Source: Labilibacter sediminis (GTDB lineage: Bacteria; Bacteroidota; Bacteroidia; Bacteroidales; Marinilabiliaceae). From it: 64,000 bases of DNA. The stretch is from positions 124,001 to 188,000 of the forward strand of contig NZ_VCHY01000009.1 of the NCBI RefSeq assembly GCF_005877885.1. Reading direction: 5' to 3'. The position numbers were made by a program, and so were the translations under genes. Position 1 is the stretch's first letter, and every line of letters begins with the position of its first letter. The notes under the pieces were generated by a model. It was not told where the DNA came from, ran no database searches, and was given only the letters and a program-made list of their open reading frames with translations. Of the stretch, positions 10,105 through 60,690 are shown in pieces.

Positions 10105-11627
10105 ATGCATTGGAAAAAACTTAAAATAGCCCATAAGCTCATAGCTAGTTTCTCATTTTTTTTGCGGTTTTCATTCTTTTTGGAGCCTTAGCCATATTAA
10201 GAATGAACGGAATCAAAGAATCTGCGAACACTGTTTCTGCAGAACAACTTCCTACAGTAACGAAAGTGGCTGAACTAGAACGAAATTGGCAACAAGCAAT
10301 ATTTTATTTGAGAAGTTATGGCTATAGTAAAAAACAACAGTTTTTATATGATGGGCTTACTCACCTTCAGTTTACCAAGAATATTCTTGATGAAATTAAA
10401 GCATTATTGGTTAACGATGCTTCTTTAAATGGACAATTAAAAATTCTATCATCTAAACTGGAATCTTTCGAAACTGTTGTTAAAAAGGCTCAGGAAGAAA
10501 ATAGCACTGGTAAGTCCAACGATTTACTTATAAATGATCAAATGGATAATGGCATTTTACTTACACAATTATTATCGGAATCATTATTCAAAAAAGCAGA
10601 AATGGCAGTCAACAGTAACATCAACCTGGCTTCAAATTCTAAAATCATTTTATCATGGGGTGTGATTATACTGGCCATAATTAGCATAGTGGCTTCACGA
10701 TTTCTTACCAAGTCATTTACTGCTCCTATTTACGACCTCATGACTTTTGTCCAGCAACAGGCCAAAGGAGAGTTAAATAATGAGTTTGATCTAGATCAAA
10801 AAGATGAAATTGGAAAATTGGCGAATTTAATCCACCAAAGTAACCAAAAGCTAAAAGATATGGTGATTAAATTATCCAATGTATCTGAAAGTATTAAATC
10901 TATGAGTGACCGATTTAACAACAAAGCCAACAAGTTGAATAATCATTCAACCTCACAGGCTTCTTCATCGGAAGAATTAACTGCTGCTATGGAAGAAATG
11001 GCTTCTTTAATAACGCAAAATGCAAGTGATGCCAAACAAATCTCAAGCTTAACTAAACAGTCATCGCAAACACTGGAAAATGAAGTCAGCCAAACACAAC
11101 AAGCCATGCATATTATGGATGAGCTAATAGATAAGTCTGTAAGCATAAAAGAAATTGCCATGCAAACCAATATACTTGCCCTTAACGCCGGAATTGAAGC
11201 AGCAAAAGCAGGAGAGCATGGCAGAGGATTTGGGGTGGTTGCCAAGGGTATTAGAGAACTAGCGGAGCGAGCTCAGGAAATTTCCAGTTCTATGAACGAG
11301 ATTTCGGAAGAAGGAAAAGAATATTCAAACTTGGCAACCAACAGCTTAAAAAAAATTCATACTGAAAGTTTGCAAACAGCAAAATACATTCAAAAAATAT
11401 CTGACTCAGCACTGGAACAACAAACCGAAGCTACACAAATTTCAAATGCGGTTAATGAGTTTAACGGCCATACACAAAGAATTGCAATAATGTCTGAAGA
11501 TATTTCTGCTGAAGCAGAAGTTCTAAGAAAAGAGTCGGTTGACATGCAGGAAATGCTTAGCTTTTTTGCTGTTGAAGGCACGGTAAAAATTAAACCCGCA
11601 ATATGCGTTAGAAATCCTATTATGTAA
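10105..11627 (+). pseudogene. Methyl-accepting chemotaxis protein, frameshifted at the 5' end and truncated at the 3' end
   Basis: The long open frame (10203-11627) encodes a periplasmic sensor region, a second transmembrane helix (about 10650-10710), a HAMP domain and a signalling domain with the hairpin tip [20 protein letters not shown]. The expected N-terminus lies just upstream in another frame: ATG at 10105 encodes [19 protein letters not shown], then a run of eight T (10156-10163) shifts the frame. One extra T would continue as [20 protein letters not shown], a typical first membrane helix. At the 3' end family A copy A5 begins at 11594, so the last 11 residues ([11 protein letters not shown]) and the stop codon are mostly repeat-encoded. 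As read, it lacks TM1 and its native tail. The T-run could instead be a phase-variable tract or a sequencing error. Confidence 0.8.
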
Positions 11628-12099
11628 TGAAACTACTGCCAATCAAACCGTAAACTAACTTGTTTCAACTCACCATAGCGGTGCTATGAGTCGTCTCAAC
11701 AAGTCCTTGATTGTTTGCACTTTCATTCCTCATTACGATGTTCTAACACATAATCCGGGCAATGTCGTTTAGTTAAGAAATTCATTTCATGAATTTCTTA
11801 AGAATGGGACTTTGTCCCATACCCTACTTCCTTTTTGTCATTGCCACAAAAAGGAAGCAAAAAAGTCTAGTCGAGGAGAATGCCAACCCGCTCTTCCCGA
11901 TTGTTTATAATTCTATAGAAGTAAGTGTTCTTTCAAACACAAGGACAAGCCCCTTCTATGAATTATATAACAATCGGAAATACACTGCCTCCATTGGCCT
12001 TCAACTCCTCGACGGGCCTGCGCGCCCCTTTACTATCGTGAGTTAAAATGTTTTAAACAGCTATGATATTCTTAACTAAACTACATTGATAATCCGGGT
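11594..12099 (+). mobile_element. Composite insertion: family A copy A5 interrupted by element C
   Basis: Family A sequence runs from 11594 (ACCCGC) to 11759 and resumes only for its last base at 12099 once the internal element and one duplication are removed. The outer ends are flanked by TAA (11591-11593 and 12100-12102), the family A duplication. The inner element C lies at 11760-12088. Removing both gives an A copy of about 167 bp, matching the others. Confidence 0.88.
11760..12088 (+). mobile_element. Element C, 329-bp inverted-repeat element nested in copy A5
   Basis: It has 20-bp terminal inverted repeats with one mismatch (11760-11779 and 12069-12088; core GTTTAGTTAAGAA). An exact 10-bp direct repeat, ATAATCCGGG, flanks it (11750-11759 and 12089-12098). 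Internally it has hairpins AAGAAATTCA/TGAATTTCTT, TGGGAC/GTCCCA and CTTCCTTTTTGT/ACAAAAAGGAAG. No transposase is encoded, so it would need a helper enzyme. An 85-codon frame inside it is probably not a gene. Confidence 0.85.
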
Positions 12100-12102
12100 T
12101 AA

Positions 12103-12300
12103 AAGAAAGAAAAAGAAGAAAAAAAGAATTGATAACAAAGGAAAAGAGACCAACTCTTTTGGTGAAGTAAACAGCCAGCTTTCACAACTTCACCTTCCTC
12201 CTATTGTTCCTTCCCATATTAAAGAAAAGGAGCAAAAACAAGCAAAACGAAGAGTATATTTCATTTTAAATAATCAACTTTTATTCTTTGCAATTATTGG
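12103..12300 (+). pseudogene. Displaced 3' tail of the chemotaxis receptor gene
   Basis: After excision of the composite element, the receptor codons ending VKI join this segment in frame. The joined tail begins with a lysine/arginine-rich stretch and continues KGKETNSFGEVNSQLSQ, LHLPPIVPSHIKEKEQKQ and AKRRVYF. The segment ends just before a terminator at 12302, which would fit as the receptor's own. No stop codon remains in this frame, so a further indel near 12270 (stops are present in both other frames there) is inferred. The frame now runs into mnmE. Confidence 0.6.
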
Positions 12301-12301
12301 A

Positions 12302-12334
12302 AAGCAGAAATCTATGAGGTTTCTGCTTTTTTGT
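12302..12334 (+). terminator. Intrinsic terminator between receptor remnant and mnmE
   Basis: The stem AGCAGAAA / TTTCTGCT has a loop of about 9 nt and is followed by TTTTTTG. It precedes the mnmE promoter and probably ended the chemoreceptor transcript. Confidence 0.75.
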
Positions 12335-12347
12335 TTAAACGTTTCTG

Positions 12348-12355
12348 TATTTTTG
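12348..12355 (+). promoter_or_regulatory. mnmE promoter (-7 element)
   Basis: TATTTTTG fits TAnnTTTG. It lies 19 bp before the ATG at 12374, so any start upstream of it is untranscribed from this promoter. A TTGTTT about 17 bp upstream could be the -33 element. Confidence 0.6.
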
Positions 12356-12373
12356 CATCAAATTATACCAAGA

Positions 12374-13786
12374 ATGATTAATCTTAAGGATACCATAGTA
12401 GCTGTTTCTACAGCTCAGGGCGCAGGAGCCATTGCTGTAATTCGTTTAACAGGACCAGAAAGTATTTCTATTTGCGACAAAGTTTTCAAATCCATTAAAA
12501 AAGATAAAAAGCTTATGGACCAAAAAGCAAATACCATTCATTTTGGTTCATTAATGGATGATGGAAAAGAATTGGATGAAGTGCTGGTGAGTATCTTTAA
12601 AGGCCCTAACTCTTTTACAGGTGAAGACACCATCGAGGTATCCTGTCACGGAGCTCCTTTTATACAACAAAAAGTACTGGAATTATTCATAAAAAGTGGT
12701 GCTAATTTGGCTGCTCCGGGCGAATTTACGCAAAGAGCGTTTTTAAATGGTAAAATGGACCTTTCACAAGCGGAAGCCGTAGCTGACCTGATTTCTTCAA
12801 GATCTGAAGCAGCGCGAAGAGTAGCTCTCCAACAAATGAAAGGGGGCTTCTCAAATGAATTAATTCATTTACGCGAACGCTTACTCAATTTTATTTCCTT
12901 GATTGAGTTAGAGCTTGATTTTAGCGAGGAAGATGTGGAATTTGCCGATAGAAAACAGCTCATTGACCTTGTGAATGAAATTGAAAAATTACTAACAAAA
13001 CTGATTGGTTCCTTCTCTCTGGGTAATGCCATTAAAAATGGTATTCCCGTTGCTATTGTTGGGCACACCAATGCCGGTAAATCTACCCTGCTCAATGCCA
13101 TTTTACAGGAAGACAGAGCTATTGTTTCAGATATTCATGGAACCACACGCGATGTGATTGAAGATACGATAAACATTGAAGGAATAACTTTTCGTTTTAT
13201 TGATACTGCAGGCATAAGAAAAACAACAGATACCATAGAAAACATAGGTATTGACAGAACTTTTAGTAAAATTGAGTCTGCTTCTATTGTAATTTTAATG
13301 CTCGACATCAACGATCCGGATAACAAGATTCACGAAGCCATTGCTGATGTTAAAGAAAAGATGAACGAAAGTCAACAGTTGGTAGTAGCCATAAATAAAA
13401 TTGACTTACTTAGCAAAGATGAAATAGCTCAGCGATATAACAATGAAAAATTCAAGGAGTTATCTGGTTCTGATGCTATCGTTCCTATGTCGGCCAAAAA
13501 ACAAAATGGTATAGAACAACTATCCAAAGAGTTAATCAAAACCATTAACCTACAGGCAGTAGATAATGATGAAGTCATTGTAACCAATGCCCGCCATTAC
13601 GAGGCGTTACAGCGCTCCCATGAATCTATACTTCGTGTTTTAAATGGATTACATGATGGTATCTCAGGAGATTTCCTTGCCCAGGATATTCGTGAGGTTC
13701 TTCACTTTTTAGGCGAAATTACAGGTCACATTAATACTGACGAAGTTTTAGGTAATATCTTTAAGAACTTTTGTATCGGTAAATAA
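12374..13786 (+). CDS. mnmE: tRNA uridine-5-carboxymethylaminomethyl modification GTPase MnmE
   Basis: A 470-residue GTPase that, with MnmG, modifies U34 of certain tRNAs. The N-terminal formyl-THF-binding domain starts INLKDTIVAVSTAQGAGAIA. The G domain shows GHTNAGKSTLLNA (G1), GTTRDV (G2), DTAGIR (G3), NKID (G4) and a SAKK-type G5. The C-terminus is the conserved FKNFCIGK that carries the catalytic cysteine. The frame stays open 96 codons upstream, but that stretch is repeat-derived and receptor-tail sequence, and the promoter at 12348-12355 lies inside it. The ATG at 12374 gives normal family length. Confidence 0.96.
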   Translation: MINLKDTIVAVSTAQGAGAIAVIRLTGPESISICDKVFKSIKKDKKLMDQKANTIHFGSLMDDGKELDEVLVSIFKGPNSFTGEDTIEVSCHGAPFIQQKVLELFIKSGANLAAPGEFTQRAFLNGKMDLSQAEAVADLISSRSEAARRVALQQMKGGFSNELIHLRERLLNFISLIELELDFSEEDVEFADRKQLIDLVNEIEKLLTKLIGSFSLGNAIKNGIPVAIVGHTNAGKSTLLNAILQEDRAIVSDIHGTTRDVIEDTINIEGITFRFIDTAGIRKTTDTIENIGIDRTFSKIESASIVILMLDINDPDNKIHEAIADVKEKMNESQQLVVAINKIDLLSKDEIAQRYNNEKFKELSGSDAIVPMSAKKQNGIEQLSKELIKTINLQAVDNDEVIVTNARHYEALQRSHESILRVLNGLHDGISGDFLAQDIREVLHFLGEITGHINTDEVLGNIFKNFCIGK

Positions 13787-41079: not shown

Positions 41080-41126
41080 ATCAAACTATTATGGATGTTT
41101 TGTGTTTAAGGTATATTTAACATTAA

Positions 41127-41167
41127 ACCCGTAATATGCATTAGAAAATCTATTACATATTCCGGGA
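41127..41167 (+). repeat. Family A deletion derivative, copy A7
   Basis: Only 41 bp remain: a left end ACCCGTAATATGCATTAG and a right end TTCCGGGA, still flanked by TAA (41124-41126 and 41168-41170). About 127 internal bases have been lost. It ends 19 bp before the AraC gene start. Confidence 0.78.
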
Positions 41168-41186
41168 TAAACGAACAACTACCTTA

Positions 41187-57698: not shown

Positions 57699-59132
57699 CT
57701 ACTCTTTTAACTTATTATTGTTCAATTGGCTCATAGCCAATAAATACCCTTCATATTTTATTTTAAAAATATCTAGTCCCCGCTTAAAGGAGATATATCC
57801 AGGGCGGGGTTGAGATGCATAACCACTCCATCCACTAAGGCGTCCCAATACCCAGGAACAGTAAGCTATTGTGCCTATATCAAAGGGATTCTTTTGCTTT
57901 TGGGTATCACCTTCCACAGTTTTGTTTAGTACCTGTATAAATTCAATTTCCGGTAGGGAAAATAATATATTAGCTTTCGCTACATGATTTTTATCGTACG
58001 CCATTTTAAGCGTCATTGTAGTTAGTGCAACTTGTAAGGCCAGGATTAACTGCTTCTTTAATGCAGATCCAGTTTCAAGTTGGGAACTCTCTACCTGCAT
58101 CCCTTTGCTTTTTAGTACCCGAAACAACTCTTCAATAACCCACCTTGTACTATACCATTCGATACATTGCAACGCATCATGTGAATTTGATATTTGATGG
58201 GTGGTTAACAGGCGCCATAGTATGGGATCTTCTTTTTCCGGCACAGTTTCCGGAAACTCCCTTGCCTCAATTGCCCACATCTCAACCCACTTGGGGTCGT
58301 CACTAGGTTTTCCTGTTTTATCTTTAGGTTTAGCTATTTTTACCTTTGCGTACTTTAAGCTCATTTTAGCAAGCCTTTTCTTTCTTTTCTTGTTGTGTTG
58401 TATGGGCAACTCATATTCCTGTTCAATAGGTTGAGATGCTAAAAGGTCAAATAATTTAATGTCTTGTCCGTACAGTTTCCTGTTGACGCTTGAACGTATC
58501 AACAAATGGGTTCGCTCATTGGGGACACGTGCCAATTCTTCATAAATATCCGCTTCTCTGTCTCCTATTATGGTTAACTGTGAACTTTGTGGCAACAACT
58601 CCTGGCTTTGTTGGGCTGACTTAATCCAACGGTAAGACTCCTTGTCTTCTATATTAAGCTTTTGGTACTCCCTTTCGTGCCTGTTTTTCTTGTCCCATGA
58701 CCGGTTCCATAATTGTATCGAAGATAAACCTATTGGTAAACGCTGCCTGGCATCAATAACCAACATGGGGTGGCAAAAGTACCCTGCGTTATCGTCTTTG
58801 GTTACAGGCCCTATGTCGGCATCTTCTTTGCCTATACGACCAATGTGCTTTGTATAATTTATTTCGGTTGTATCTTGTATACACAACAAGTGTCCTGTTC
58901 TTTGGTCAGGTTTACATTTGGCGGTAATTGCATCAATTAATTCCATCTCTGTAAATGAAGGGTTTCTAAATAGCTCGTATGCTGCTTTCTTGTCCCTAAA
59001 GGTAGAACAATACTTATTTACTACTGTATTTCCTATTTTTTGCATATCTTTTAATACTTTCTCCGCTCTTTTTTCAATCCTAAAATCAGATAAAAATCCT
59101 TTGAAATAATTATTGTATCCCCTGTGTTTCAC
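57699..59132 (-). CDS. IS4-family (Tn5/IS50-type) transposase
   Basis: A 477-residue DDE transposase related to the Tn5 type. N-terminal DNA-binding region (STFRDKKAAYELFRNPSFTE), then the three catalytic segments: CIQDTTEINY (Asp), IGDREADIYEE (Asp) and WVIEELFRVLKSKG (Glu, in the YREK-like setting). It appears full length and intact. Terminal inverted repeats could not be located in the flanks, so element boundaries are unknown. Confidence 0.88.
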   Translation of the reverse strand: MKHRGYNNYFKGFLSDFRIEKRAEKVLKDMQKIGNTVVNKYCSTFRDKKAAYELFRNPSFTEMELIDAITAKCKPDQRTGHLLCIQDTTEINYTKHIGRIGKEDADIGPVTKDDNAGYFCHPMLVIDARQRLPIGLSSIQLWNRSWDKKNRHEREYQKLNIEDKESYRWIKSAQQSQELLPQSSQLTIIGDREADIYEELARVPNERTHLLIRSSVNRKLYGQDIKLFDLLASQPIEQEYELPIQHNKKRKKRLAKMSLKYAKVKIAKPKDKTGKPSDDPKWVEMWAIEAREFPETVPEKEDPILWRLLTTHQISNSHDALQCIEWYSTRWVIEELFRVLKSKGMQVESSQLETGSALKKQLILALQVALTTMTLKMAYDKNHVAKANILFSLPEIEFIQVLNKTVEGDTQKQKNPFDIGTIAYCSWVLGRLSGWSGYASQPRPGYISFKRGLDIFKIKYEGYLLAMSQLNNNKLKE

Positions 59133-59301: not shown

Positions 59302-60690
59302 TTGGACATTCTTAATTGCAAGGTTATTAGTAAATTAGGGGAAAACCTTGCAGAAATAATGAAAGGAAAACTACCTAATCAGAATCAGAGAAATTTGTTC
59401 CGTCCCATTTTAAAGGATATCATCAATCCTAAGCATGAACTGGCAATATTATCAGGTCGTATCAACTGGCAGGATTTCGAAGACAGCTTTAGTCCGCTTT
59501 ATTCACATACTGGCCAGCCGGGCACTCCCATTCGCACGATGGTTGGCTTATTGCTATTGAAAAGGATCTACAACTTGGGAGATGAAACAGTTATGGAGCA
59601 ATGGGTTCAAAACCCCTATTTTCAATACTTCTGTGGAGAAGCTGAGTTTCAGTGGATGCCTCCGTGTGATCCTTCAGATATGGTACATTTTAGAAATCGC
59701 ATTGGCGAACAAGGAGCTGAAAAAATACTTGAAGTTTCCATTGACACCAGAAGGGATGAGATTAAAACTACCAATGATGTACTGGTCGATACCACTGCAC
59801 AAGAGAAAAACATTACCTACCCCACAGACAGCAAGCTGCTGATAAAAGTGATTAAGTGCTGTAATAAAATAGCTAAACAAGAAGGCGTTGAACAAAGGCA
59901 AACCTATCAGCGAACCATGAAAAAACTCCTGTTAAAGCAGCGCTTTGCACACCATCCCAAACGAAAGAAAAAGGCCAAAGCTGCATTGCGTAAGTTAAGA
60001 ACTATAGCCGGAAGACTAGTTCGAGAACTGGAACGCAAACTTGACCAGGAAACTTTTGCGCGATATGAACAGGTATTAAAGAATTGCTTATGTGTTGTCG
60101 AGCAAAAGAAAAGCGACAGCAATAAAATTTATAGTTTACACGAACCCGATACAGCCTGTATTGCAAAAGGAAAAGCTCATAAGAAATTTGAATTTGGTTC
60201 AAAGGTATCTTTTGCAGTTGTCCCTAAAGTAAATATCATAGTCGGCATTAAAAATTTTAATGGTAATCCTAATGATACATCAACCTTAGAGCCAGCACTG
60301 GAAAATGTTGAAAAGGTGAGCAAGATTAAATTCAAAAATGCTATCGTTGACAGAGGTTACAAAGGAAAGAAAAAAGTACACGACACAATAATCGTTACCC
60401 CTAAGCCTCCATCCTCCAGACAGCCTTATAGCAAAAACACAATGCGAAAGAAATGTAAGTCAAGAGCAGCAGTTGAACCGGTTATCGGACATACAAAACA
60501 CAGGTGTCGTATGATTAAAAACTACTTAAAAGGCAATGTTGGTAACACAATTAATGCAAATTTGGCTGCAGCAGGGTTTAATTTCAAAGGATTACTTCGT
60601 AAAATCAAGGAAGAAGTTCTTTGGCTAAAAATACTACTGGAAATATACTTCAAAACTTATTGTATATCTCCAGTAATTTTTAGTTCGTAA
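59302..60690 (+). CDS. IS5/IS1182-like DDE transposase
   Basis: A 462-residue transposase with an N-terminal DUF772-type domain (TPIRTMVGLLLLKRIYNLGD) and a DDE core: DVLVDTTAQEKNITYPTD (Asp), AIVDRGYKGKKKV (Asp) and RAAVEPVIGHTKHRCRM (Glu). It seems intact. The start is a TTG at 59302; the first ATG (59359) would cut 19 residues. A basic linker of about 60 residues (KRKKKAKAALRKLR) lies in the middle. It lies 169 bp from the IS4-type transposase gene and diverges from it. No inverted repeats were found. Confidence 0.82.
   Translation: MDILNCKVISKLGENLAEIMKGKLPNQNQRNLFRPILKDIINPKHELAILSGRINWQDFEDSFSPLYSHTGQPGTPIRTMVGLLLLKRIYNLGDETVMEQWVQNPYFQYFCGEAEFQWMPPCDPSDMVHFRNRIGEQGAEKILEVSIDTRRDEIKTTNDVLVDTTAQEKNITYPTDSKLLIKVIKCCNKIAKQEGVEQRQTYQRTMKKLLLKQRFAHHPKRKKKAKAALRKLRTIAGRLVRELERKLDQETFARYEQVLKNCLCVVEQKKSDSNKIYSLHEPDTACIAKGKAHKKFEFGSKVSFAVVPKVNIIVGIKNFNGNPNDTSTLEPALENVEKVSKIKFKNAIVDRGYKGKKKVHDTIIVTPKPPSSRQPYSKNTMRKKCKSRAAVEPVIGHTKHRCRMIKNYLKGNVGNTINANLAAAGFNFKGLLRKIKEEVLWLKILLEIYFKTYCISPVIFSS

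Follow-up and report, generated by a model that had tools for sequence, protein, structure and literature searches.

Mobile elements that occupy one position of a repeat, elements that insert in transposon ends and small elements that lie inside other small elements are already known. IS231A is linked to the ends of Tn4430 and, unlike the element described below, is an autonomous Bacillus element. It belongs to the IS4 family and is described as having insertion specificity, a property that invites comparison with the present case (PMC2266710). ISRm22, another IS4-family member, lies at one position of the REP sequence of Sinorhizobium meliloti in 10 of 10 copies (Table 2 of the paper), some of them with imperfect duplications (PMC1525189). 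IS4321 and IS5075 are reported to target the inverted repeats of Tn21-family transposons (PMC5517477), and in the archaeon Haloquadratum walsbyi SMR-A elements and MITEs are described within PATEs (PMC3119063).

A nested pair of small elements, in which a 329-bp element (C) is inserted in a copy (A5) of a 165-bp element (A), was found in the window, the 64,000-nucleotide stretch of Labilibacter sediminis DNA that was analysed. Like ISRm22, C is linked to the IS4 family, occupies, in every copy, a single position of an abundant repeat (28 of 28 flanked ends) and shows some imperfect duplications; as described in PMC1525189, however, ISRm22 is an autonomous IS that makes 6-bp duplications and inserts on the axis of the REP palindrome, whereas C is a MITE with 10-bp duplications whose target is the end of another mobile element and has no such dyad. 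With the type 1 association of REP-targeting ISs, C shares the single insertion position but not the REP palindrome, since A is a 165-bp element with a 5-bp duplication of its own. The likeness to IS4321 and IS5075 is that a mobile element has as its target the terminal inverted repeat of a different one; those elements belong to the IS1111 family, whose inverted repeats are subterminal and whose enzyme is of the DEDD type, in contrast to the terminal repeats and 10-bp duplication of C. C also resembles SMR-A in being a small transposase-free element found recurrently inside another small mobile repeat family, although SMRs are archaeal, are described as making no target duplication, and have a mobilisation that their report calls enigmatic (PMC3119063). 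The ends given in a report on Porphyromonas gingivalis MITEs differ from those of C (PMC4596501). In the open-licence PMC literature, no report was seen in which an IS4-type MITE was restricted to another MITE's ends. The new combination is that of an IS4-type MITE with 10-bp duplications that, wherever its flanks could be read, lies only at the termini of a second family of MITEs. The case records, for a bacterium and with well-marked 10-bp duplications, a small element that lives on the ends of a different mobile family, and a single nested insertion becomes a natural experiment on target choice.

An earlier, sequence-only reading of the locus had placed C between exact 10-bp repeats inside A5 and had proposed that A inserted first and C later. 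Both points were confirmed: the two copies of the 10-bp duplication are identical, the duplications of both elements are intact (Table 1), and the terminal arms of C, each of 26 nt, are 88% complementary. The 10-bp duplication of C is exactly the last 10 bp of A5, so that C sits at the very edge of A and leaves A whole. The same reading had assigned A5 a TAA duplication; the duplication is in fact the 5-bp TTAAA, and TAA is part of its TTNAA form. Within the window, the pattern of the C end was matched twice (0.13 expected by chance) and that of the A end 13 times (0.52 expected). At this locus, then, A5 entered a chemoreceptor gene close to its 3' end, with duplication of TTAAA, and C entered the right end of A5 afterwards.

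Table 1. Positions in the window of the nested elements, their duplications and the neighbouring genes
Feature	Position	Strand	Basis or remark
Element C, probable IS4-type MITE, 329 bp	11760..12088	+	inverted ends 11760-11785 and 12063-12088
A5, complete 165-bp A element, CCCG...CGGG	11595..11759	+	24 genome copies at 93-100% identity, A5 counted in
10-bp duplication of C, left copy, also the last 10 bp of A5	11750..11759	+	sequence
10-bp duplication of C, right copy, ATAATCCGGG	12089..12098	+	sequence; left copy exact
5-bp target duplication of A5, left copy, TTAAA	11590..11594	+	sequence; exact TTNAA in 19 of the 23 other A copies scored
5-bp target duplication of A5, right copy, TTAAA	12099..12103	+	sequence
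Structured core of C	11824..12021	+	stretch aligned with core relatives; counted helices begin with the stem that follows TCTAG and end with its partner ahead of GGGCC
Interrupted chemoreceptor ORF	10203..11627	+	MCPsignal domain at residues 278-437; last 11 codons (11595-11627, stop included) derived from A5
N-terminal coding remnant, first membrane helix	10105..10202	+	out of frame with 10203 across the T run 10156-10163; compared with the N-termini of L134 and L135
Former 3' end of the receptor gene, severed by A5 and C	12104..12300	+	aligns with the tails of L134 and L135
Terminator-like inverted repeat in the receptor-mnmE gap	12301..12329	+	inverted-repeat search of the window
Presumed mnmE, downstream neighbour	12374..13786	+	same gene order in L134 and L135

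The interrupted gene lies upstream of an ORF that we presume to be mnmE. Orthologs of the receptor are found directly upstream of mnmE in two genomes of the same genus (L134, 71% identity; L135, 64%), and both are free of A and of C at this place. As had been proposed, removal of 509 bp restores the receptor frame into the downstream sequence on the joined flanks, and the present C terminus of the receptor is repeat-derived. The joined tail also resembles the tails of the two orthologs, with which it aligns through a lysine run followed by LPxIVPS or IPxIVPS. The receptor had been regarded as otherwise intact, a view that has to be revised, as further frame breaks were found near both ends of the gene. 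The first membrane helix, in frame in both orthologs, is out of frame in the window at its T run; no stop closes the joined receptor frame, which continues into mnmE, whereas both orthologs terminate ahead of that gene; and an ending EEYISF-stop, as in L134, is found in another frame of the window. From the breaks near both ends we conclude that the receptor gene is decaying, unless these breaks are sequencing errors. The locus thus gives an ordered series, A and then C, inside what appears to be a decaying gene. Besides the insertion of A5 and C, a break in the receptor frame near the tail was observed at about 12230-12265.

The ends of A matched at 345 places in the genome, compared with a single match for a control pattern, and these 22-bp ends make up about 0.12% of the genome. 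Duplications were scored in the 23 copies, from 30 A loci, in which both ends were readable and C was absent. Nineteen were exact 5-bp duplications, all of the form TTNAA (10 TTAAA, 7 TTTAA and 2 TTGAA), and four were inexact; thus, the duplication made by A is not TAA. With its inverted ends CCCG...CGGG and its target duplication, A has the features by which MITEs are recognised. No autonomous transposon related to A was noticed at the A-end places listed (100 of 345). Miniature forms of A, about 39 bp long and consisting of little more than the two inverted ends, were observed in the window (41123-41171) and at L073 and L078; the one in the window is flanked by TTAAA on one side, with a single mismatch in the opposite flank, and the other two carry C.

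A genome search with C returned 41 matches, among them nine full copies that were 97-100% identical to the copy in the window, and a search with the C end at up to 3 mismatches returned 31 places. Wherever the flank had been sequenced, the C end abutted an A end at the identical base (28 of 28), a few of these A ends being degenerate (for example at C351:214377). The remaining three of the 31 comprised one C-type end at a contig edge and two of another subfamily lying away from A ends, one of them at C332:250668 (read in L023). The sequence-only reading was right that C lies inside A5 but missed that this nesting recurs at every flanked C end. The assembly consists of 372 contigs and has breaks inside C copies; pairing of outer and inner flanks gave about 15 copies of C, a figure that is an estimate because several copies are split by contig ends. 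Given the abundance of A ends, C might simply have hit A5 by accident, without any targeting. The 28 flanked ends at one base of A refute this explanation, to which we attach practically no probability: 15 random hits in 0.12% of the genome would have a probability of about 1e-44. Thus, the position of all readable C copies at the same point of the A end indicates that the nesting is targeted and not accidental. C itself has the features of a MITE, being 329 bp long and multi-copy (nine full copies and contig-edge pieces), with inverted ends and a target duplication, and its 85-aa ORF matched no Pfam family at E 0.001.

Recurrence at A ends could also have arisen by the copying of a single A::C composite, either through transposition of A or through gene conversion among the A repeats. 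In favour of this, the full set of A ends that is kept beside C could allow A::C to move as one, the C copies are nearly identical, and the C-bearing A bodies include two pairs with 96-97% similarity. Duplications like that of the window copy were found at other C copies, as the sequence-only reading had anticipated: among nine fully flanked copies, six have exact 10-bp duplications, two have one mismatch and one, at C351:214377, differs at 5 of 10 positions. With reverse complements counted as one, the six exact duplications fall into four sequence variants, of which one is common to three copies, as copying would allow, and three are private to single copies among the nine. The exact duplications in four variants argue for separate insertions of C and against copying, as does the occurrence of C in either orientation, at the left as well as the right end of A, and in several A subfamilies. 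The 13 inner flanks represent different A subfamilies with widely differing bodies, including two of the 39-bp A elements, which consist almost wholly of inverted repeat. Differing A bodies, together with full C copies 97-100% identical to the one in the window, point to recent, separate insertions, and we consider copying of a composite very improbable.

The IS4 subgroup is described as having ends of the form -AATR--------WTW---- and direct repeats of 10-13 bp (PMC2266710, Table 1). The ends of C, CAATGTCGTTTAGTTAAG, fit this consensus as well as the looser IS4Sa consensus, and its 10-bp duplication falls inside the range given there (PMC2266710). Exact matches to the first 22 bases of C were found in two genomes, G077 and G106, which belong to other families of the order. 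A 1498-bp element at L126 has nearly the ends of C, is flanked by exact ATACTTGAAT duplications and encodes an IS4-family transposase; the duplications of the element at L129 are AATTATCAAT, and those of an element with slightly different ends at L132 are AGGTAAGAGG. The L126, L319 and L129 transposases scored above the cut-off of NF033592 (153 bits for L126, cut-off 115), and those of L126 and L319 matched PF01609. A DDE transposase with Y(2)R(3)E(6)K is a mark of the IS4 subgroup, and the YREK residues were invariant in six aligned transposase relatives from other genomes. A PDB sequence search with the IS4 transposase returned one weak, unrelated hit.

A close transposase for C was not found in the assembly of the window, where the best hits were at about 1e-12 and a second query gave none at 1e-20. 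The 1.5-kb surroundings of the 10 PF01609 hits of the assembly contained no C-type end at up to 5 of 20 mismatches; at 6 of 20 mismatches several chance matches appeared. With only weak transposase hits in this genome, the enzyme may be absent, lost or unassembled. Two divergent ORFs of the window with DDE transposase matches (PF01609), at 57699-59132 on the minus strand and 59302-60690 on the plus strand, have no C-type end nearby at up to 5 of 20 mismatches.

It is highly probable that C is an IS4-type MITE that uses a transposase in trans and targets the A terminus, TTTAA followed by CCCGNNWTAT. C would be a non-autonomous element, moved by an IS4-type DDE transposase through what may be a cut-and-paste reaction with a 10-bp staggered cut. 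The target in this genome would consist of TTTAA outside A together with the first 10 bp of A (CCCGNNWTAT), and the A end would be recognised by its sequence. Of the two points at which C is joined, one coincides exactly with the boundary of A, so that A stays whole and its terminal 10 bp are present a second time beyond C. The outer five bases were TTTAA in 14 of 15 C copies, compared with 47 of the 100 A ends listed (of 345), an enrichment with p about 0.0002 in a test made after the pattern was seen.

Elements with C-type ends form a wider group. The end pattern was found in at least 112 stretches of the genome collection, with Bacteroidota names on all but 6 of the 80 listed, and an inverted partner end with at least 8 of 10 matching flanking bases was present at 25 of these 80 loci (of at least 112; best pair per locus). 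Outside the window's genome, most elements with such ends lie away from A ends, which speaks against the A terminus as a general target: in Carboxylicivirga marina (L205, G365), four of the 16 loci examined lay at A ends (L351, L353, L354 and L364) and 12 did not. In two Saprospiraceae genomes, palindromes of the CCAATGG-GTCATGACC-type were clear targets at L319, L323, L328 and L334 among 18 loci fetched, lying at L319 and L328 around 1413-bp elements with a transposase; other loci had altered or different targets (for example L321 and L332). The palindrome pattern had 38 and 71 matches in these two genomes, in many places on both strands. IS4 elements of the same genus as the window's lay in sequences that, judged by eye, were hairpin-like (L375 and L377). 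For 51 elements outside the window's genome, the target arms were 0.478 complementary compared with 0.325 after shuffling, and 0 of 2000 shuffles were as high, in a test where related targets from the same genome may have been counted repeatedly. A dyad like that of these other members was not found in the target of C, whose arms were 0.30 complementary over 8 copies, the shuffled value of 0.59 being one that mixes both target orientations. Thus, the specificity of C differs from that of these other members of the group.

The use of other targets, often palindromes, by elements with such ends means that no single sequence is common across the group. This is one reason to consider that C might be drawn by the transposase of A or by nicked A ends, through a protein or structural mark, and not by the sequence of the A end; another is that one joining point of C is the exact boundary of A, where A's own transposase would cut. 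The preference of C extends outside A to the TTTAA side, however, which suits recognition of sequence, and C is also found on degenerate A ends such as that at C351:214377. We regard attraction by a mark as rather unlikely, and recognition of the A-end sequence by an IS4-type transposase as the better account of C.

C is strongly structured, with a predicted fold of -112.7 kcal/mol (z -13.5). Its core is a conserved multi-hairpin unit that occurs in several genomes with and without IS4-type ends (L091, L092, L095, L098, L100, L026, L368 and L369), including places where no C-type end was found (L367-L373). Nine core sequences, seven of them from five other genomes, were aligned; these were the candidates with the motif among thirteen, L101, L102, L103 and L371 having dropped out. 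In this alignment 93% of cells were paired, and two-sided changes were seen in 20 of 37 pairs compared with 7.0 after shuffling, where the shuffles ignore relatedness. Sliding the partners abolished the covariation signal. Changes on both sides were counted in 33 cells and on one side only in 5, and such paired changes with few one-sided (G-U) intermediates hint that selection may act on DNA rather than RNA hairpins. At the gathering score no Rfam family was found over C, and the window yielded three tRNAs only, elsewhere. Six weak Rfam matches appeared in 11500-12350 at a permissive threshold and were treated as chance, including the best, to RefA1 (E 0.015, 22.7 bits against 94), and one to the Bacteroides sRNA BTnc231 (E 0.054, 21.8 bits against 80.4). 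A 398-bp variant of C, 69 bases longer and with the extra sequence in one hairpin loop, was observed at L020 (G000:C155:7522-7919); the longer form was also seen at contig edges (L015, L016 and L018), and a similar loop without C ends at L370.

A broader reading, which we offer tentatively and think somewhat less probable than its opposite, is that IS4 elements and MITEs over the Bacteroidota keep near-constant ends while retargeting to locally common repeats as hyperparasites, and that the core hairpins of C are under selection at the DNA level. Under retargeting, the targets would be A termini in the present genome and partly in Carboxylicivirga, palindromes in Saprospiraceae and other hairpins elsewhere. 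Since the ends are near-constant and the repeat targets apparently differ from genome to genome, a comparison of the transposases could show which residues set the target.

Two further arrangements were observed. In the Saprospiraceae genome G363, copies of the palindromic target of IS4-type elements are grouped in short tandem-like arrays, spaced by some 65-115 bases (C72:20214-20637, C28:10046-10267 and C57:3258-3706). At L326, L327 and L329 (G362), two IS4-type ends face outward across only 10 bp, an arrangement of adjacent elements that have one target copy in common.
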